From Dissophora ornata (lineage: Eukaryota > Mortierellomycota > Mortierellomycetes > Mortierellales > Mortierellaceae): a DNA stretch of 22,141 nt. The position numbers and the translations under genes are program-made. This document shows positions 3,939 to 18,571 of this stretch, in pieces (position 1 is the first letter of the stretch; each line of letters starts with the position of its first letter). Under the pieces are notes generated by a model. The model worked only from the letters and a program-made list of their open reading frames with translations, was not told where the DNA came from and searched no databases. The DNA lies in contig MU617132.1 of NCBI GenBank assembly GCA_025201705.1, positions 1 through 22,141 of the forward strand. Reading direction: 5' to 3'.

Positions 3939-6139
3939 ATGGTGGACTTTGGACTCTTCTCTGGCGCCATCCAGCTAGCCCTCGTCATCAACGAGATGGC
4001 CCGCGCCGCCCAGGCCAACAAAGTCAGCTGCATGGCCATGAACCACCGAATCCAAATCGCAAACGAGATCATAAAAGCGGCCTTTGAGCAGCACAAACTC
4101 AGCCCCAAGACCGTTGTTATATCAGAAACGGCCTTCAAGATGTACTTCCAGCTGCTAGAGCGCATGCGCGACTTTGTCGCCGAGATTAGTAAACGAAAGA
4201 CGTTTTCAAAGGTAAATGGGACCCTGCTGCTGAGCCTTGCATGTGCCACGCCATGTTTGTTTGCGCAGAGATGTGCTGTGCCGTACGAGGCTGTCTGTGT
4301 ACGCCCTCTACCTTGCCAGAGGCATTCTGGGTGCCTGACGTGGCGATAGTGGATACTTATTCTGACAACCCGGTCTCTGTCTTTCAATGTCGCCGATATG
4401 AAAATATAGCTCTTCTACGCACTGAGGTTCCGCGACGAGTTCGATGCGTTGCTGCGGGACTTTGACAGCTGTGTCCTGGATGTGAGTTATGCTTTTTGCC
4501 TCAACAGCCGCTCTCTCACGCGCGCGACTGGATGAATTCTATTGCTGACATGACAAGAATTCCCATTTGCTCTGCACCAATCGCTGTCTAGCTGAATCTC
4601 GGTATCGCGCTGCGAACACAGGCCCAGCTCGAGACAGATAGGAGTGCGCTCGAGGAGGACATGGTCGAGTTGCGAGCCTTCCGCAAGGAGCTCCAGAGCG
4701 GCGTGGATTGCCTTGGTGGCCAACTTATGGGCATCCGTCAGATGATTGCCACCAACCGCCCCTCAGACGACATCCTGACCGTGGTCGAGATTGACTATCG
4801 ACAGGTGGTGGACATCACCCCAGGAGAGATTCGCAAAGGAAGGACCTTCCCTGTGCACAAACGGTCGTTTCTTGCGCAGGAAGTCGCAGAGAAGCCCCTG
4901 GGGTTCTTTGGGTCAAATGACATGCTGGACATGCTGAAGAACGAAGTCGCCATCCTGAAGAAGCTGGACCGGTCCAACTACATCACAAGGTTCATGGGAG
5001 TCACCAACCGCAATAAAAACATCAGCATCATCATGGAATGGTTGCCTGGCGGAGATTTGGCGTCCGCACTGGCAAAGGTAAGATATCCAAGCATGGCCTT
5101 CTCTGCGTATACGATGACACTGCTCAAACCATAGCATTCTCTATGGGGACCACTGACTCACACTCATTGCTTTGCTCTGTTCCTCAGGGAGACCTGGATT
5201 GGGAGACAAAGCTGTTCATCGCCGCAGACGTTACCCGAGGACTCCACTTCTTGCACGAGGTAATGACCGTACAAAATGAGTCAGAACTGTATCTTCTTGC
5301 ATTGGCACTGTAAAGCACATCTTCTAATTCTGACCCGCTTCCCCACCATATAGGTTGGTATTATTCACAAGACTCTGCGCGCAAAAAACATTCTCCTGAC
5401 GCGGCATGGTCAAGCGAAAATCACAAACTTCCGTCAGAGTCGATTGGAGAATGCACAAACACGCCCAATGTCCGACCCGTTCAGCTTTGTGCGCTGGCTG
5501 GCACCAGAGAAAATGACACACAAGGATACCCGATATAGCGCAGAGTGCGATATCTACAGCTTTGGTATGCTCCTCTTTGAGATTGCGTCGAACCGCATCC
5601 CATTCCCCCAATACAAAGACCGAGAACTGCCAGAGCTGATTGTCCTCAATCAAATGTACGAGACTGTGCCAGAAGGCACGCCCTTGCAATTTTCAAACAT
5701 CATGACTGCATGCTGGTCACACGACCCTCGGTTGCGACCCACGGTCTCCCAGGTGCTACTAATTCTCAGGGAAGCGTCATCTGCGATTACGAATGGACCA
5801 GAGTTGTTTGGGGGTCTGCCTACGAGCATGGCGGACCCGGCACCACTGTTTGCCATGTTGCCACCAACGCCCTTGGTGAGCCATGCCCAACCGGCACCCA
5901 CCCCCAACGTACCCCAGAATGGAATGTTGATGCCGGAAGTCTGGAATAACCCTTATGTCAATAAGCGGTTCGTTGAAGAGTCAATGGAACAAATGAGGCA
6001 GGCCCAGCAGAGTCAGGGGCAGCAGCCATTGCCGTCTCAGTCCCAGCCTCCTCAGTCGCAATCTTCACAACCCCAGCAGCAGCCCCAACAACAGCAGCAA
6101 CAGTCATCTCTACAACTGCAACAGCAGAAGCTGCAACAG

Positions 6140-6174
<35 letters not shown>

Positions 6175-7471
6175 GCAGCAACAGCAGCAACAGCAACAAC
6201 AGAAGCAAACGTCCCCTCAGATTCAGCATCAATCTCCGCGCATCCAGACCCAACCACCTGTATATCATTCTCCGCCGTCTCAAACACATCAAGCGCCAGG
6301 ATCAAAGCACGAGTATGTGGACACAGCTCAAGCGAGCTCCGACAGCGCTCCGCACGCCTCTAAACTGCAACTCCAAACCAAAACTTTTACGCACCCACAG
6401 GGACTCAATCATCCCCCTATCTCTGTCTCCTTCCCTGTCGATCCTCAGACACCATCATCAGCGGGATCATATTCTGCGGGACCATTCTCTGCAGGATCAA
6501 CATCATCTACTGGGCCATTCTCCGCTGGGCCGTCTTCTGGAGGATCATCCTCTTCCACTTCCCGGCCTGGAGACACTCCGCCACTCGTCAATAGGAACAC
6601 TCGTCCATTGGGCATTAAATCCAAGAGGGGTTCACAGCCATTGGAGACTGAGATGAACCGCATGTCGCTGCAAGGCGATGACAAGTCGGGCAGTCCTGTG
6701 ACATATGACCAAAACGCGAGCTACTCGCCGCAGCTTGCCATCAGAAATATAGGCGGCAACAGCAGCAGTAACAACAGCAACAATGTCAGCCGCAACAACA
6801 GCGGCGGTGGAGGTGGCAGCAGCGGCAGCAACAACGTCAGCCGCAATAACAGCAACAATAGCGTCAATCGCCACAGTAGTACCACCAGTAACGGTGGCCA
6901 TGACGGCAGCGCGTCCCCGAACGTGATGCCAAGGGAATCGATCCGTCCTCGATCCACTAGCCTTGCGCCTGGAACACCGATCAACACGCTATCTCAGGCG
7001 TTGGTCTTCCATGAGAGCCAGGAACGAGATCAGGCCTGGAGGATCTTCAAGGCCTATTGCGACCAAGGAAACCCAGAGGGCATGTACTGGGCTGGCTACT
7101 ATATGTTCCATGGAGAGGGCGGCCAGGTTCAGAACAAGCAAGCGGCATTTGAACTGTTCCGCGCAGTGACGTTGATGGAGTTAACTCCAGAGATGGGCCG
7201 ATTGGCGTCGAATGCCCATTTCTACACTGCGGTCTGTTACCTTGAGGGACAGGGCGTGGAGCGTAATCATGCCACGGGATTTGGACATATGGAGATGGCG
7301 GCGGATTCGGGCAACGCGTTCGCACAATACCTGGTGGGCGATGCGTACCACAAGGGAAGCGTGGTGGTGCAGGCCAATCCACAGAGGCGGAATCATTACT
7401 GGCAGATGGCAGCAAGGCAAAAAGAGCCACGAGCGATCGATCAATGTCGTAAATATCAAATTCCGATGTGA
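3939..7471 (+). CDS. MLKL-like pseudokinase with Q/N-rich linker and C-terminal Sel1 repeats
   Basis: Five exons (3939-4211, 4410-4481, 4592-5077, 5188-5259, 5354-7471) join in frame to 1006 aa. The start is ATG 3939 in GCACCATGG. Residues 1-115 look like a four-helix bundle (FSGAIQLALVINEMARAAQ near the N-terminus), followed by a charged brace-like helix (about 116-160). Residues about 165-430 have a TKL kinase fold: VAEK with Lys216, NEVAILKKL helix C, GGDLASAL hinge region, WLAPE at 349-353 and CDIYSFG at 366-372. Catalysis should be lost: the HRD motif reads His306-Lys-Thr308 and DFG reads Asn326-Phe-Arg328. A Q-rich tract includes 23 consecutive Gln (562-584). An Asn/Ser/Gly tract (about 765-814) follows, then Sel1-like repeats from about 850. 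By family, Sel1 repeats mediate protein assembly. Membrane killing or scaffolding is inferred only from the MLKL-like layout. Confidence 0.88.
6134..6202 (+). repeat. CAG/CAA trinucleotide run encoding 23 glutamines
   Basis: This is an uninterrupted run of CAG and CAA codons (residues 562-584) inside the last exon of the pseudokinase gene, flanked by further Gln-rich sequence (about 6001-6210). CAA interruptions break the pure CAG repeat. Length variation between strains would be expected. Confidence 0.95.
6745..6890 (+). repeat. Asn/Ser/Gly low-complexity segment with repeated NNVSRNNS
   Basis: AAC/AGC/GGC triplets encode an Asn/Ser/Gly-rich segment in which the octapeptide NNVSRNNS occurs twice, separated by a poly-Gly/Ser stretch. 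It lies between the Gln-rich tract and the Sel1 repeats. Together with the polyQ run it makes a prion-like linker of several hundred residues. Confidence 0.85.
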
Positions 7472-9151: not shown

Positions 9152-9302
9152 GAGACCCCCAAGGTGATGACCTCCTTCGTATCGAGCTCGACGCTAAAAC
9201 ACTCCCACTTTTCTTTTAACAAGAAAAAACACACTCTAGAATATAACACCCGTTTCATCCCAGTTCACTTGGCACAATCGAGGTTTCTTGCCCGTTACTT
9301 CA

Positions 9303-11639
9303 ATGAAGGAGATGACCTGGACTACCGCCCCTCCCTCAACCGCAATCACTCCTATTTCAACTCCTTTCATGGGATCTTCCCCCCATTCGCACTCGCAGCC
9401 ATTTGCAAACCCGACCGTCTTTCCGGGATTCGATTTCCGTCTCTCGTCCGACATAGAGTCCTCAGATTCATCCTCTGCATACTCTACACCGACCACTGCC
9501 ACAGCTGTAGAGGTTTGGTCATACTCATCAATGCCCGTCAATCACAACAGCAATAGTAGTAGCAGCATCGACAACCACAACGGCTACAGCAGCACCTCCA
9601 CGGAGAGCAAGAGTCAACAGAATCAGATCGCGAGGATGGCAGAGTTACGATCTTTAGATTATGCTAATACAAAGGAGTATAGTTGCGACACGCCAACCAT
9701 GGAAGCATGCTCCAATGACGCTCTATCGCAGCGGCTAAGAAATAACGCTGATCAGCCCCAAGGGTTACTGCAGGCTCAGTCACGGGAGGCGCTGGTGCTT
9801 TCTCGCTCGAATCACGGCATAGCCTCCTCGTCCTCTCCTACACGATCTGTCCACTCCAGTCATTCACACCCCCTGGCAACCACAGCAACAACAACAGCGA
9901 CGGTGACATCGATACCAACAACAGCAATCATGTCGCCATCTCCGTCACAACAGCACCTGAATGCGCAGCAATACTTGACAATGATGAACGAGGCTGCGAG
10001 TCGGATCCGGGCTCTCACCGACGACCAACAGCAGTCGTCAGCTTCGCCACTTTTACCGCCGTCAAACTCTTTGTACAATACATCTCAATGGGGTGATTTC
10101 GTGAGTCAGCCTCCATCAAGCAATAGTGTTGCTCATAATTATCATCCAGCTTATCAGAACCTTTCGCATCTAGCCTTGAGAAGGACCCAGAGCATGGGTG
10201 TGTTTGCGCCTCAGATCCCGTCGCTCTCTTTGAGCACGGGTACCATGACAAATGCCTCTTCGCCAGACAGCCCTATGGTGATGCTCCTTCCACGCCATCA
10301 CAGCCCTCTCCATAGCGCAGGCACCCCCCAAAGTGCACGGCCGCGACATAATCCATATAATGACTACTTTGGGCCATCCAACGCTTCGACCTCATCATCG
10401 CTATCGCCATCACCTGTCCCCACATCTACTCTTGTTGGAGGCGCTTCTGCTGATTCAAACTTGGATTTGGGTATAGATACGAACATGCACATGATGGCAG
10501 CAACAACAGCGGCCTACTCTAATTCCACGACGACAGCTACAATAGAGAACCATCGCGTCCATATCCCAGTGCCAATTCCCATGGCCCTTACTGGGTCATC
10601 ATCACCTGTACTATTGCATACCCTAAAGGGAAACAGACAGGAGTTTATAGTGTCTTCGCCATCCCTTCCTTCTTCACTGTCGTTGGCGCTTCTCTCGTCT
10701 TCATCCTCTTCTACTTCGCCTTCGCCTTCATCACCAAGTCCACTCATGCTCTCATCTTCCTCTTCTTCTACCTATTCTTTTTCTTCAAGTCCATCTTCAT
10801 CTCTTGCTGTGGCTAGTTCTGGCCGTCACAGACGACTAAGCATCATGACAAACACCTCTTCCACTTTTGCATCTGTATCGGGAGCGATGTCGTCTCCGGC
10901 GACGAACTCTTCCTCCCCATACTACAACTTCCCTACCTCCGCCTTTTACGAACACTACAAGCCGGTCCCTGCATCGCAGAGTCCATCCAATAACAGCAAT
11001 AACAGCCACAACAACAACAAAGGCGCAAGCACCAGTGACAAGAGCAACAGTATCAATAACAAAAAGTCCAAAGCACGTTATGTCTGTAAAATCCCAGACT
11101 GCCACCGAACATTCTCTCGACCCTTCAACCTCAAATCGCACGGTCTGACGCACGAGACCCACCGCCCACATGCCTGTGGTCAGTGTCCAAAGACGTTTGC
11201 ACGGATCCACGATCGGGACCGACATAGCAAGGGGCATTTGCTGGAGAAAGCCCATTCCTGTATTGTCTGTCTAGGTCGGTTTGCGAGACAGGATGCGGTG
11301 ACGAGACATCTGAAGCTGGCGAACGAACAGAATCCGTGTGCGTCGATCTTGAAGAGCCGTGGGGTTAGCTTTCGGGAGGCTGCAGCTGGGAGGGTGAAGC
11401 GGAGCGCATTGGGAGAAGAAGGAGTGATTAGAAGGTGGTTGGAGGGGCTGGAGGAGCGGGCGAGGAAGGCGAGAGCGAGCAAGAATTTGGAGATGGGGAT
11501 GATGAACATGAATATGGACTTGAATATGAATGTGACCGTGGGAATGGGTAGTGGAAGTGGACGAGGAGCGATGGAGGTGGTGATGGACGGGATTGCAGGG
11601 TACGAGTTGAACGGGATAGTAGGACATGCCAACTATTAG
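9303..11639 (+). CDS. C2H2 zinc-finger transcription factor with Ser-rich N-terminus
   Basis: A single uninterrupted frame gives 778 aa from the first ATG at 9303. A second in-frame ATG at 9312 has better context (purine at -3) and could also be used. Residues 1 to about 580 are low-complexity Ser/Thr/Pro/Asn, typical of activation or regulatory regions. Three fingers follow. The first has Cys595, Cys600, His613 and His617. The second has Cys625, Cys628, His641 and His645. The third has Cys653, Cys656 and His669 with Cys679 as likely last ligand (RQDAVTRHL then NPC). The arrangement, with FSRPFNLKSHGLTHE and FARIHDRDRHSKGH, resembles Crz1-type fungal regulators. That resemblance is from memory, and no calcineurin docking site was found. 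The tail is Met/Asn/Gly-rich (NMNMDLNMN). It should act in the nucleus; target genes are unknown. Confidence 0.87.
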   Translation: MKEMTWTTAPPSTAITPISTPFMGSSPHSHSQPFANPTVFPGFDFRLSSDIESSDSSSAYSTPTTATAVEVWSYSSMPVNHNSNSSSSIDNHNGYSSTSTESKSQQNQIARMAELRSLDYANTKEYSCDTPTMEACSNDALSQRLRNNADQPQGLLQAQSREALVLSRSNHGIASSSSPTRSVHSSHSHPLATTATTTATVTSIPTTAIMSPSPSQQHLNAQQYLTMMNEAASRIRALTDDQQQSSASPLLPPSNSLYNTSQWGDFVSQPPSSNSVAHNYHPAYQNLSHLALRRTQSMGVFAPQIPSLSLSTGTMTNASSPDSPMVMLLPRHHSPLHSAGTPQSARPRHNPYNDYFGPSNASTSSSLSPSPVPTSTLVGGASADSNLDLGIDTNMHMMAATTAAYSNSTTTATIENHRVHIPVPIPMALTGSSSPVLLHTLKGNRQEFIVSSPSLPSSLSLALLSSSSSSTSPSPSSPSPLMLSSSSSSTYSFSSSPSSSLAVASSGRHRRLSIMTNTSSTFASVSGAMSSPATNSSSPYYNFPTSAFYEHYKPVPASQSPSNNSNNSHNNNKGASTSDKSNSINNKKSKARYVCKIPDCHRTFSRPFNLKSHGLTHETHRPHACGQCPKTFARIHDRDRHSKGHLLEKAHSCIVCLGRFARQDAVTRHLKLANEQNPCASILKSRGVSFREAAAGRVKRSALGEEGVIRRWLEGLEERARKARASKNLEMGMMNMNMDLNMNVTVGMGSGSGRGAMEVVMDGIAGYELNGIVGHANY

Positions 11640-12045: not shown

Positions 12046-13563
12046 ATGAACACAGCTAGAATTGCTGCCACTGAAAAGACAGGAACAGCAGCAGCAGACA
12101 GCTCCCACTCACGGAACCCTGTTCGGATCTGGGTTGATGGCTGTTACGACGTGATGCACCACGGCCACTTCAATGCCCTGCGACAAGCCAAGGCCATGGG
12201 CGACATTATCGTCGCAGGTGTCCATTCAGACGCAGAACTGCTGCTTCACAAGGGTCCTCCCGTCATGAACGAACAAGAGAGGTACGATTACTAAAAGTCG
12301 ATACATTTCTATCTGGAGTAAAATGGCGCTTGTACGCTTACAAAAAAAAAAAAAAATAGGATCGCTGCAGTAGCGGCTTGCAAATGGGTTGACGAAGTAG
12401 TTCCCAACGCGCCATACCTGACTTCGCTCGAGTGGATGGATCGGTACAGCTGTGATTTCTGTGTCCATGGAGATGATGTCTCGACATTAGCAGATGGGTC
12501 AGACTCGTATAAACATGTCAAGGATGTAGGTCGGTACCGCGAATGCAAGCGTACCAAAGGCGTCTCGACCACGGACTTGGTCTCGCGCATGCTGACTATG
12601 GCGCAAGATCAGCAGCAACAGCCAACCCAGTCAGATCAGGATCACACGTCCACAGCCTCATTGGAAGGCAGAACTGCCGATGACGTGACCACTGATGGAT
12701 CTGAAGAAAGAGGGAGTGATAATGACACCATCAAATGCAAAGGGATCAACACCATCAACGGCACCAAGCACGGAAACAATAGCGAGAGTAGCGATTATCA
12801 TGTCCTTGCGACAGCCCGCAAGATTGGTCAATTCTTAGAGGGCAACAAAGAGCCTAAGAAGGGCGACAAAGTTGTTTATGTTGACGGAGGGTTCGATCTC
12901 TTCCACGTGGGTCATATCGAGTTTCTGAGGCGAGCCAGGGCGATGGGAGACTACCTCGTCGTGGGCGTACATGACGATCAGACGGTCGGGGCAATCAAAG
13001 GAGATCGCCATCCATTACTGAGTCTGCACGAGCGTGTTCTCAGTGTTCTCGCCTGTCGTGTAAGCTATGCCTCGAGGAGAGGGGGTTTAAGCATCTGTGT
13101 TGCAATCGCACGGTTCTAACCGGCTGTCAATTTGCCGTTTGCAGTATGTAAATGATGTTGTGATAGGCGCACCGTATAATGTCACGGACCAGGTGCTGGA
13201 TGGAGACTACGGCGTGGATGTGGTCGTGCGTGGAGCTACGACTGCATCAAACGACACAAATGGCCAAGATCCGTACAGAATACCTAAGCAGAGAGGGATC
13301 TTTGTTCAGCTTGACCAGCCGCCGCATCCAGTAACTACGGAGAGCATTGTTCATCGTATCCTTGTCAACCGAAATTTGTAAGTCTATTGTAAATCTTTAG
13401 CAGCGAGCGATGATTTCCTAGTCATGTTCTAATGAAACGGGGGGCATCTTTTGTGTACGTGTGTGTGGTCGGTAGGTATGAAGAGCGGCAGCGGCGAAAG
13501 GCAGCCAAGGAAGCAGCTGCCGCGCTGGCACATCCCAAGGAGGATCAGTGCGGCACTATGTAG
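12046..13563 (+). CDS. ECT1: Ethanolamine-phosphate cytidylyltransferase
   Basis: Four exons (12046-12281, 12360-13059, 13145-13377, 13476-13563) join to 418 aa. The protein has two cytidylyltransferase domains, as in yeast Ect1 and mammalian PCYT2. Each carries the nucleotidyl-transfer HxGH motif: HHGH at 38-41 in DGCYDVMHHGHFN, and HVGH at 261-264 in GGFDLFHVGHIEF. The first domain also shows CVHGDD and the RTKGVSTTD signature (143-151). The C-terminal domain ends with IVHRILVNR and a basic/Ala-rich tail. By family, it makes CDP-ethanolamine from CTP and phosphoethanolamine, the rate-setting step of the Kennedy route to phosphatidylethanolamine, at the cytosol/ER surface. An acidic, Gln/Ser/Thr-rich insert (roughly 158-230) separates the domains and makes the protein longer than its yeast (323 aa) and human (389 aa) relatives. 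Confidence 0.95.
12342..12356 (+). repeat. A15 homopolymer at an intron 3' end
   Basis: Fifteen adenines run directly into TAG at the acceptor of the first ECT1 intron (12282-12359), where a pyrimidine tract would be expected. The reading frame across the junction (completing an Arg codon, then IAAVAACKW) confirms the splice site. Confidence 0.85.
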
Positions 13564-13893: not shown

Positions 13894-16321
13894 ATGTCTG
13901 CAACGTCTGTTCTCCGCATTAGTTCCCGATGCACCTCTAAATCGATGCCCGTCGCCACCAATTCGCTCGGGATCCCGAGGGCTTTCTCTGTCCTCAGCTC
14001 CAAGCGTCTGGGAACCCACCTCCACCATGCTGGCGCGGCGCTCAAAGGTATAAAACAGGGACAGCAACACCGAACTCATGGATATAATAAAAGGATCTGG
14101 TGGGAACCAACTTACTTTCGATCTACGATCTGTTAACGCCTTGATACTCACTTTCTCATTTTGATCTGTCATCACTCCAAACACAGGCCATGGCCAGGCT
14201 GTAGGATGCGCACCCGCAGTTTTCAGTCAACAGGTACTGCTATCCTCTGCTGCTTGCAATGCTCGTTTCTATGCTCTTCACTTTTTTTATTTGATCTGGC
14301 CCGATCTGCGTGTAGTTTGATATGAATCCCCCATGTCTCATTTTGCCCAATGTCTCCTCTTAAATCTGATAGCGAAACTTTCATGCCTCAGGTATTGCAG
14401 GACGCTTTGCTTTACATTCGCCAATATACTTGCTGGATATCACTGGAAAGACATCCCATCTTGGCAACGGAATAGCTCACCATAGCATGGAGCCTCTATT
14501 TGCATCTTACCCGGGAAATGTATATAATAGCACCCACGCTAGCTAGCCAGCAGGACCCTTACGCCCTTCTCGGAGTAAAAAAGACAGCTAGCCAGTCAGA
14601 GATCAAGAAGGCTTACTACCAGGTATAGCATTTTTCTCGATTATGGATTAGAGGTCGACTCTTTTGGCCTGGATCATAGAGCAGGAATATGAGATACTGA
14701 GCCGCTTATCGGTGTATATGAAAACCGTTTTTTTTTTCATATATATGTAGCTTGCGAAGCAGTACCATCCAGACACCAACAAGGACCCAGCAGCTCGTGA
14801 AAAGTTCGTACAGATTCAGGAGGCATACGAGATCTTGTCGGATGAACAAAAGAAGGCTCAGTACGATGAGTTTGGTCATGCTGGATTTAATGGTATGTCC
14901 GACATTATATTTCCGGGGCTTCAAATCTGTGCGGCAGCGGTCATCGATATCTTTACTCATTTTTTGTGGTACGATCTGTTAACGTCCTATGCATTCTTGG
15001 TTTGGCCATCTCCCTTTTTCTAGGCGGTTCCCCTGGTGGAGCTGGCGGTTTCCCAGGCGGTTTCCCAGGTGGTTTCCCTGGTGCTGGCGGAGGGTTCGGT
15101 AACTTTGAGGACGTGTTTGATTTCTTTGGAGGAGGATTTGGAGGACCTCGCGGGGCTAGGTCCTCTGGATTCTCGAGCCAAGGCGAGGACCTTGAGGTAA
15201 TATATCACTGTCGCTGTAACTCGTAAATTCCTATTCAACCGGAATTTCGGCTTGACAACTGACAGAGCGCAATTTCTATTATTCATGTATAATGCTAGGT
15301 TCCATTGGTAGTGGATTTTATGGAGGCTGTCAAGGGAGCATCAAAGAAATTGACGATCGACCCCATCCGGACTTGCGATCCGTGCCATGGATTTGGAACA
15401 AAGACCGGAAAGGCACCGGACGTTTGCAAAACTTGCCACGGAACGGGTCAACAGAAGATTTCGATTCAGGGATTCCACATGGCGGCGCCTTGCCAGGCTT
15501 GCGGCGGTGTGGGCACGATGCTGCCGAAGGGCAAGGAGTGTAATACCTGTGGAGGAGTTGGTCGTGTTCGTGTACACGAATCTGTGGATGTGCATGTTCC
15601 TGCAGGTAACATTTTTATTAGCGCCCCTGTGGTTTTCCTTGAATGATCCCTTCGATTCTTGTACGCCCTCGATACTGATACAGTGACTTTTTTTCTCTTC
15701 TTTGCTTTTCTTTTCTTTTGTTGTCTGTTGAAATGGCGATTAGGTGCTGACGAAGGTGTTCGTATCCGTTTGGGTGGAAAGGGCAACGCACCAGTGCACG
15801 GCGAAGGCAAATCTGGAGATTTGTTTGTTCGGTTGAGGGTCAAGCCGTCGCCATTCTTTAAGCGCCAGGGCGCAGATGTGTACACGGAAACAACGATTCC
15901 ATTCACAACAGCAGCACTGGGAGGCACGGTCAAAATTCCTACAGTGGATGGGGATGTGGAACTGAAGATTCCTTCAGGAACACAACCAAACGATGTCAGT
16001 CGACTGACGAAACGTGGAATCCAGAGATTGAACAGGAGCGATAAGGGAGATCAGTTTGTGACACTGAAGGTTGCATTGCCAAAATCGCTGTCGAAGACTC
16101 AGCGCGAGATCTTGCAGAAGTTTGAGGAAATTACGTATCCTAGTGCCAAGCCTTCATCATCGTCATCATCAACGGATTCAAACGACCCACACTCGGCAGG
16201 AGGGTTCTTTAAGTCGACGCTTGACATGCTGAAGGACAAACTGCACCACCACGATGACACCGAGAAGGAGGGCGACAACAAGAAAGACGACACAAAGAAG
16301 GATGATGGCAAGAAGCAGTAA
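13894..16321 (+). CDS. MDJ1: Mitochondrial type I J-protein (DnaJ/Hsp40, Mdj1-like)
   Basis: Seven exons join in frame to 489-490 aa: 13894-14047, 14187-14233, 14551 or 14554-14622, 14751-14892, 15024-15196, 15299-15605 and 15744-16321. Residues 1-67 are rich in Arg/Ser/Ala and lack Asp and Glu, as expected for a mitochondrial presequence. The J domain begins at [10 protein letters not shown] (68) and has HPD at 96-98. A Gly/Phe region (about 138-185) includes repeated GGFP units. The zinc domain has all four CxxCxGxG motifs at Cys221/224, 238/241, 260/263 and 276/279. The substrate-binding C-terminal domain follows. By family, it stimulates matrix Hsp70 ATPase and binds unfolded proteins. 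The tail (about 465-489) is a Lys/Asp-rich charged extension with HHHDD. Yeast Mdj1 is of similar size (511 aa). Exon 2 (47 nt) is assigned from phase and splice sites alone. Confidence 0.92.
14541..14595 (+). repeat. Duplicated 10-mer AGCTAGCCAG spanning a tandem splice acceptor
   Basis: AGCTAGCCAG occurs at 14541-14550, ending at the acceptor of DnaJ exon 3, and again at 14586-14595 inside the exon, 45 nt later. Directly after the first copy comes another CAG, so the acceptor is a NAGNAG pair (14550 and 14553). Both choices keep frame and differ by one Gln. Confidence 0.8.
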
Positions 16322-16459: not shown

Positions 16460-18571
16460 TCACCATCCATCGCTAATGTCGACCCCATTATCTGCAAACC
16501 AGCCCATGGTTTCGCGCTCAGCAGCCCTCTGTGAGCCTTGTTGCAGGAGAGGAAATGTGGGACTCCTGACACTCATTTCTGTCTCGTCCTGCTGGAACAG
16601 GACAGTGTCTTCTACGCCACGCTCCATGTCGCTCATATTTTCGTCATCATCATCCAGGAAATCGGATAACTCCGAGTCTGTCCCATATTCAAGAGGACTC
16701 GGCAAAGCCCTCTCTGAGGTGTGTTGGTCATGACGGCCTACAAGTGCCTGATCCTCCTGTCCCTCATCATAGTCCATGTACTGGGTGCCGCCAGCAACAC
16801 CTCCTACAAAATCAGAATCTCCCAATGCTGTTACTCCTGCTAAGTCAACAACAGGAACGCGGTCACTGCTGCTCAACAACTCAAGTCCACCTGAAGACCC
16901 ACTCCTACCCAGTATGTTATTGCCTTCCGCCCTTCCCGACCCCCGTCCCCCCGCCAATGCTGCCGCTACGTTTCCAGATACTCCACCAGAAGATGAGCGC
17001 ATGGAGACCCGACTCAATCTCATGCTCTCTCTCCTCTTCCTGCGCCTCTCGGTCCTGATGCCCTCACTCGCTTCGATTTCGCGTTTCGCCACAATCCACA
17101 CGTACGCTCCGACTGCAAAGCCAATGATCATGCTGAACACCATGACCACAATCTTCAGAGCCCGCCCATGAGAGTTGCCGTCTGCAGGATCGGGCAAAGG
17201 CGCAGTCGTGTCACCGTCGTCTCCAAGCGGGGGAGGCGGAAGGACTGCGAGGGACGAGAGCGTGGATCCGATGTAGACGTGAAGGGCGAGCTTTATAAGG
17301 GAGATGGCTGTAGCAAGCGCAAATGTCGAGAGCGGGATATGAGTCGCAGAGAGCAGGGCGTTCATGACATTGAAAGGATAGGGCGCCAGACGGATCAAGA
17401 GCATCAGCTAAAACAATTGAAATCCCGGTTTTTTTGTTGATGAGATTACGTGTCAGTCAAAGGATGGACGATGCCATGGCGCTGTTATGCATCGCATTTG
17501 TGCATTGCTGTGATACGTGGCGCCTAGATATGTACTCAAACAAGCCAATATCGTGGACTACAGAAATAATTAAATGTACTGCGTGTCGATTTAGTTTACC
17601 TTGAAGCCCCGCTTCTCCACAGCCTTGACAACAGACTTCATGCTCTGCTTCTTGGCCATCAAGGCCCTGACCTGGACCTTGAACCACCTTCGGCACAGGT
17701 AGAAACATGCAATCGATCCCAGCAGCGCAGACGTGTATGCAATAAACAGACCGAATCCGAATCCATAAACATATCCTAAGACAATGCAATTGTGATCGTG
17801 TGAGTGATCAACGAGTCAGGCGTAGTCGACTTGGGCTGTAGGCCGTTTATGATTTTGTATCCAGCTCGATCCGTTCTCCAATCGATTAAACGCCAATGCG
17901 CCCACTATGTTCATTCTGCGACCTGTAATATACCTGACATGGTCACCAGAGAAGAGTACCCGACAAGAGGCGGGAACGCTGTCAGGAAAAGCCCAAGCAT
18001 GATGATTGGCGGACCACTACAACAACAAAAAACGGCAACCCAGGAGTCAAACAACATGCAATCAGATCTACGGTTGAACAATTGAAGCGGTCCATCTTCG
18101 TACCCTCCTCCACCCACAGGTTATACAAGAAAGATCAGACACGTACGCTCGTCCGAGTCCTTTGATAAAACTCGCCATGGTCTCCAGCAACTCAAAGATC
18201 CGCGTATGAAACCCTGCAAAGACTGCAACGCCGACCATTGCAAAGACTAGCCACAATCCAACCCAGAACCACGGCCGCACCATCGCCGGTAATGCGGCTC
18301 TGATTCGAAAGAGGATTGAAAGGTTGTACTGGATGGCCCGTATTGGTATTGATTTAAGTCCTGTCAGATTGCTATTGCTGTGGCTGCTATTGGAATTGCT
18401 TTGACTAGAAGCAGAGTTGATGGTGCTGAAAGAGTCCTCGTGGTAGTGGGCGTGGCGAGCGTGTTGTTGGTGGTGGGAGTGCGGGTTGTTGGTAGAGGAG
18501 GACGAGGTGACGAGGCGAGGCGAGGGCAAGGACCTAAAGGCCTCCCCGACCGAGGGCAGACTGGAGCTCAT
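16460..18571 (-). CDS. TVP38: Tvp38/TMEM64-type VTT-domain membrane protein
   Basis: Minus-strand exons 18571-18147, 18016-17934, 17775-17600 and 17407-16460 join in frame to 543 aa. After a Ser/His/Asn-rich N-terminus, a first membrane segment spans about 99-121 (WFWVGLWLVFAMVGVAVFAG). The VTT (SNARE-associated Golgi protein) domain follows, with PPIIMLGLFLTAFPPLVGYS (144-163), a Gly-rich membrane segment (about 171-195) and the conserved RLAPYPFNVMN (234-244). A final membrane segment lies at about 311-336. The tail of roughly 200 residues is basic (RRRKRRESMR), then Ser/Gly-rich, then acidic (DFLDDDDENMSD). Yeast Tvp38 is shorter (337 aa). Members of this superfamily (VMP1, TMEM41B, DedA) move phospholipids across bilayers; Golgi residence is inferred from Tvp38. 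The start is uncertain: the frame stays open upstream to 19117, but that part is CT-rich and looks like leader. Confidence 0.88.

Follow-up and report, generated by a model that had tools for sequence, protein, structure and literature searches.

Gene structure and conservation

The gene at positions 3939–7471 of a stretch of the Dissophora ornata genome (contig MU617132.1, positions 1 to 22,141; the whole 22,141-nucleotide stretch is called the window) raises the question of whether Mortierellomycota possess a protein of the MLKL type and, if so, how such a protein might be switched. Computation established the gene structure, the domain order, an MLKL-like predicted fold, the loss of catalytic residues, and conservation in Mortierellomycota. 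The gene and the motifs described in an earlier reading of the same DNA (the original prediction) were confirmed as real. Five exons on the forward strand, separated by GT-AG introns, join into an in-frame coding sequence of 3021 nucleotides for a protein of 1006 residues. The parts of the gene are as follows.

3939..7471, + strand: complete gene from start to stop codon (ATG start), in five exons with GT-AG introns and an open frame of 3021 nucleotides
3939..4211, + strand: exon 1, residues 1–91, bundle helices 1–3 (gene model and ortholog fold prediction)
4410..4481, + strand: exon 2, residues 92–115, most of bundle helix 4 (gene model and ortholog fold prediction)
4592..5077, + strand: exon 3, residues 116–277, brace helix (119–180) and kinase N-lobe (gene model and ortholog fold prediction)
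4892..4894, + strand: K216, the VAxK lysine, retained (VAEK in 20 of 20 orthologs)
5188..5259, + strand: exon 4, residues 278–301 (gene model)
5354..7471, + strand: exon 5, residues 302–1006 and stop; kinase C-lobe, linker and Sel1 repeats (gene model and Pfam)
5366..5374, + strand: H306-K307-T308 replacing HRD (HKT or HKN in 20 of 20 orthologs)
5426..5509, + strand: activation segment, residues 326–353, from NFR (for DFG) to APE (mean identity of residues 326–352, 96%)
5786..7021, + strand: disordered linker, residues 446–857, poorly conserved; run of 23 Q at 6134–6202
7022..7468, + strand: Sel1 repeats, residues 858–1006 (Pfam Sel1, E 4e-12; high-confidence helices in the ortholog model)

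The Pfam search assigned residues 193–436 to PK_Tyr_Ser-Thr (E 1e-40) and found Sel1 in three stretches, which bore out the C-terminal repeats proposed earlier. The N-terminal part and the kinase-like domain were joined in one protein in 19 of the 20 ortholog gene models, which are predictions and not transcripts. The exception was P0021, without the N-terminal part; of the others, P0019 is short of exon 2 and P0020 of exon 4. Since the same parts are joined in 19 of 20 models, a gene-model artefact was rejected.

The 20 orthologs are 69–88% identical to residues 1–449, which is more than chance, and 19 of them are assigned to Mortierellomycota; the shortened P0021 shows 78% over the 69% that it covers. 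The mean identity to the window protein (21 rows, itself included) was 0.80 for the bundle, 0.81 for the brace, 0.83 for the kinase domain, 0.96 for the activation segment, 0.34 for the linker, and 0.72 for the Sel1 repeats. The gene is apparently single-copy: after the window itself (67–88% identity to the ortholog P0003), the next matches in the genome were other kinase domains at 36% or less.

The pseudokinase domain

The kinase-like domain had been described as one that lost its catalytic motifs and kept the pocket lysine. This was indeed found: H306-K307-T308 stands for HRD and N326-F327-R328 for DFG, while K216 (in VAEK) and A351-P352-E353 are retained. The VAEK lysine, HK[TN], NFR, and APE are present in all 20 orthologs. 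The alpha-C Glu is retained in the window domain as well, and no glycine loop was recognisable by eye.

Some kinases without canonical motifs stay active, and the protein might likewise signal as an active kinase, its helical domain serving for targeting. Such activity would agree with the retained K216, alpha-C Glu, and APE, and with a domain that scores as a full kinase in Pfam. However, neither the catalytic Asp (T308 here) nor the DFG Asp (N326 here) survives in any ortholog, and with no glycine loop recognisable by eye an active kinase is very improbable. Judging by these residues, the domain is probably inactive.

The segment IYSFG..LFEIA..IPFP, previously taken as MLKL-like, proved to be general to the kinase group, and TNNI3K and MLTK scored higher than MLKL. 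In NCBIfam, most of the models found were unspecific kinase ones, and their scores fell far short of the cut-offs.

The N-terminal bundle and the brace

The fold predictions were made on orthologs, not on the spliced window protein. With the whole model, VIA-align listed so many kinases that the N-terminus was barely probed, and the N-terminus of the ortholog P0002 was therefore folded alone. The predicted helices span residues 4–23, 28–54, 63–85, and 88–115, followed by a long helix at 125–168. The four-helix bundle (4HB) proposed for this region was thus predicted in the ortholog models, and the best eight Foldseek matches of the P0002 N-terminus were MLKL executioner domains. A HeLo structure was absent among the matches listed, which does not exclude one, and the window protein gave no HeLo match in Pfam at E up to 5.

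A profile search of the N-terminus, with two Glomeromycota relatives included in the profile, reached MLKL N-terminal structures at E 3.4e-7 and had no non-MLKL match under E 0.05. The brace-like helix expected between the bundle and the kinase-like domain was predicted in both ortholog models. In the full model, it is formed by helices 125–169 and 171–179 at moderate to low confidence (predicted local distance difference test scores of 49–71 for 10-residue blocks). The MLKL order of domains also held along the chain, as full-length MLKL (4btf) aligned with the ortholog model over 458 columns, though at a root-mean-square deviation of 27. The identity to MLKL in the structural alignments was ~20%. 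These models support an MLKL-type 4HB at the N-terminus, and the computational checks by which the original prediction could have failed, run on orthologs where the window protein could not serve, came out in its favour.

Animal MLKL has the same parts in the same order, namely a 4HB, a brace, and a TKL pseudokinase that keeps the VAxK Lys but not the catalytic motifs. Unlike it, the window protein adds a long disordered linker and C-terminal Sel1 repeats. The plant proteins AtMLKL2 and AtMLKL3 belong to another lineage, and plant MLKL is not known to carry Sel1 repeats.

Relatives in Glomeromycota

A survey of early-diverging fungi states that MLKL-family homologs with Sel1 occur 'exclusively in Glomeromycotina' (PMC8778642). 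Proteins of this kind were therefore already known. Contrary to the statement, the MLKL family extends to Mortierellomycota, to which 19 orthologs are assigned, and the printed statement is corrected accordingly. No description of this protein in Mortierellomycota was found in the literature searched, with subscription journals and preprints outside the scope. As far as searched, two elements are new: the strictly conserved, long-linkered orthologs in Mortierellomycota, and the genomic pairing of a compact family with intact TKL-Sel1 kinases, described below.

The Glomeromycota proteins (P0025, P0123–P0125, and others) share with the window protein a homologous N-terminus with the 4HB, a pseudokinase with Asn for the DFG Asp, and Sel1 repeats. 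They differ in being several per species, whereas there is one here, in having mostly an HHD loop instead of HKT, and, in P0025, in a shorter linker. The DFG-position pattern was found in 21 of 28 Glomeromycota rows, always with Asn for Asp, and had no match in 7 rows. Since the catalytic loop of these relatives is mostly HHD, the DFG Asp was apparently lost earlier, and the HRD Asp apparently in Mortierellomycota only.

A kinase tree was built from a sample of 55 rows, given 9 of 21 window-family rows, 12 of 28 Glomeromycota rows, 17 of 41 rows of the compact family, and ten TKL-Sel1 kinase domains. The window family and the Glomeromycota proteins fell on one side of a branch with a support of 99/96, and the computation supports their common descent as 4HB-pseudokinase-Sel1 proteins. 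The idea that the window gene is a recent copy of the compact family was rejected because the two form separate groups in the tree.

Three relatives were seen in passing. P0022 (Gigaspora margarita) and P0136 (Funneliformis geosporum) each hold one or more HRD/DFG-bearing kinase domains upstream of a 4HB-pseudokinase-Sel1 part in a single gene model; these may be genuine fusions, or the annotation may have merged adjacent genes. P0028, of 594 residues, combines a compact 4HB (MLKL_N, 58 bits), a kinase domain with HRD kept and NFG for DFG, and Sel1 repeats.

The linker

A prion-like polyQ/Asn-rich tract had been proposed between the kinase-like domain and the repeats. A Q-rich disordered linker is indeed present, of Q/N/S/P-rich composition, but the tract is variable across orthologs: Q runs reach 23 residues in the window protein and no more than 11 in any of the 20 orthologs, four of which stay below 4. 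No RHIM-like pattern was found in any of the 21 proteins; other amyloid motifs were not searched. The linker lengths and compositions exclude P0005, P0006, P0008, P0009, P0010, and P0015, in which the start motif was not found, and these six count for Q-run lengths and the pattern only. 'Prion-like' describes the make-up of the linker in this species and no conserved trait.

The linker could still be read as a prion switch, in which amyloid templating would set off the bundle in the manner of HET-S. Switching of this style is known from fungi (PMC10197012), and the composition with its 23-Q run would suit it. Without conservation of the polyglutamine, however, a prion role lacks support, and the linker identity of about 0.34 and the lack of a RHIM-like pattern speak against it too; we consider this explanation very improbable.

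Two papers (PMC9815663, PMC12881547) place the fungal HeLo, HELL, and basidiomycete MLKL-like domains of NLR pathways in the same bundle superfamily; these domains are tied to NLRs and amyloid motifs. The 2025 review (PMC12881547) also notes HELL domains as a built-in part of kinase- or pseudokinase-containing proteins. The window differs from these systems: its eight scanned neighbour frames include no NLR, and its protein shows no RHIM-like pattern.

A possible mechanism

The reading that we favour is an executioner mechanism of the MLKL type, in which a membrane-active 4HB would be held by the dead TKL domain via the brace, while the Sel1 repeats on their tether would dock a signal partner. 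By analogy with MLKL (PMC12881547), the pseudokinase and the brace would restrain the N-terminal bundle. The signal would most likely come from an active TKL kinase that phosphorylates the activation segment, which hardly varies; alternatively, it might be a ligand in the pocket that retains K216. The Sel1 repeats on the flexible tether may dock the partner or assembly that carries the signal. The pseudokinase would then change, the bundle would be freed, and the protein would assemble on a membrane. We infer the switch, the membrane targeting, and any cell-death outcome from this analogy.

Several results weigh against this mechanism. The direct Pfam match to MLKL_N was below the cut-off when the N-terminus was searched alone, and for the whole protein it was unlisted even at E 5. 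Seven Mortierellomycota N-termini used as a profile found nothing in the PDB. The same direction is taken by the points that would suit a conserved housekeeping scaffold. Its 4HB would bind a membrane or lipid without perforation, its pseudokinase would serve for allosteric docking, and its Sel1 repeats would bring in clients, with no cell death involved. Sel1 adaptors of chitin synthase or of endoplasmic reticulum degradation recruit clients in this way. A scaffold would be consistent with the single genome copy, the slow evolution seen in the 69–88% identity of the 20 orthologs, Sel1 repeats nearly as conserved as the kinase domain (0.72 vs 0.83), the ordinary neighbours of the gene, and a first helix that is not uniformly hydrophobic. 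On the other side, the predicted fold and the domain order are those of MLKL, and the 4HB relatives that have been tested act on membranes in cell death, according to a review (PMC12881547). Because slow evolution and a single copy also fit a scaffold, we set the probability of the executioner mechanism at roughly 0.5 and regard the scaffold as a serious competitor, if a somewhat less probable one.

A compact 4HB-pseudokinase family in the same genome

A second ('compact') 4HB-pseudokinase family was found in this genome, with proteins of 402–428 residues made of a bundle-like N-terminus and a kinase-like domain. It comprises at least 37 listed proteins (P0240–P0276); two of them, deposited for D. 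ornata, are identical to copies of this genome over 356 of 356 and 402 of 402 residues, and a third protein of the genome is 91% identical to a deposited one over 361 residues. The 36 named proteins are all from Mortierellomycota. The full-length genes are the following.

L043:1255-2619, contig C28: compact full-length gene
L055:1486-2754, contig C28: compact full-length gene
L045:4713-5948, contig C675: compact full-length gene
L046:2000-3295, contig C339: compact full-length gene

In all 38 rows having the column, of 41, DFG is replaced by GFE (37) or GLE (1), and the catalytic Asp of HRD is kept in the same 38 rows; by eye, the VAxK Lys is Arg in all 41. Three of the four genes matched MLKL_N under the cut-off (E 0.0074, 0.055, and 0.0078), and L046 did not match. 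A profile of the four genes aligned with full-length MLKL (4btf) in one stretch, 11–418 to 12–463, at E 2.4e-20, and many kinases scored higher. Compared profile to profile, the seven Mortierellomycota N-termini and the compact family showed no significant match (probability 0.4%).

All four compact genes have, at a distance of 0.3–1.2 kb (311, 865, 1170, and 1172 bp from one open frame to the other), intact TKL-Sel1 kinase frames, which hold a VAxK-type Lys, HRD or HCD, DFG, and Sel1 repeats. This layout recalls the RIPK3/MLKL gene pair. The chance of such adjacency was estimated at 3e-10 for four genes and 8e-8 for three loci, on the assumption that genes are placed independently and with 12 stretches listed by hand. 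Since a single ancestral cluster could have given rise to the loci, the estimate shows linkage, not independent recruitment. Against a simple pairing picture, degenerate kinase frames are also found near compact genes: L045:244-1710 (HRK, GFG, with Sel1 repeats) and L046:829-1461 (HGD, GFG).

In the reviews consulted, what links fungal cell death with necroptosis is HeLo-type bundles that NLRs and amyloids switch. The early-diverging Mortierellomycota and Glomeromycota might have a RIPK3/MLKL-like pathway that is driven by kinases and needs neither NLRs nor amyloids, in which intact TKL kinases, with Sel1 repeats as sensor or scaffold, would switch adjoining (or, in P0022 and P0136, fused) 4HB-pseudokinases, the window gene being an ancient, fused, single-copy member. 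We consider this wider proposal rather unlikely as it stands; if true, kinase-to-pseudokinase-to-4HB signalling would be older than animals. With a 4HB-brace-pseudokinase in Mortierellomycota and a compact family beside intact kinases, it becomes directly testable whether fungi have an MLKL-type bundle under kinase control and whether such control predates animals.

Two remnants of compact genes were also observed. One, at L060:1501-1641 (47 residues matched, contig C226), lies 155 bp from the TKL-Sel1 kinase frame L060:1797-3140; near the other, on C311, no kinase gene was seen by eye in the 3.2 kb read. Two further loci, L001 (contig C45) and L002 (C28), were over the MLKL_N cut-off. The long frames that follow them, L003:2214-4790 (859 residues) and L004:1879-3981 (701 residues), matched no Pfam family with E limits of 0.1 and 0.01, respectively.

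Genomic surroundings

Eight neighbour frames in the 22-kb window were scanned with Pfam. No kinase, NLR, or defence family was found among them; two frames had no match, five matched families that name a gene, and one matched a VTT domain under the cut-off.

659-2164: M20 peptidase (family matched twice among the frames)
9240-11639: C2H2 zinc finger, just under the Pfam cut-off
12322-13119: cytidylyltransferase
15647-16321: DnaJ C-terminal domain
16460-17407: VTT domain, under the cut-off

The neighbours of the gene in the window are ordinary genes.
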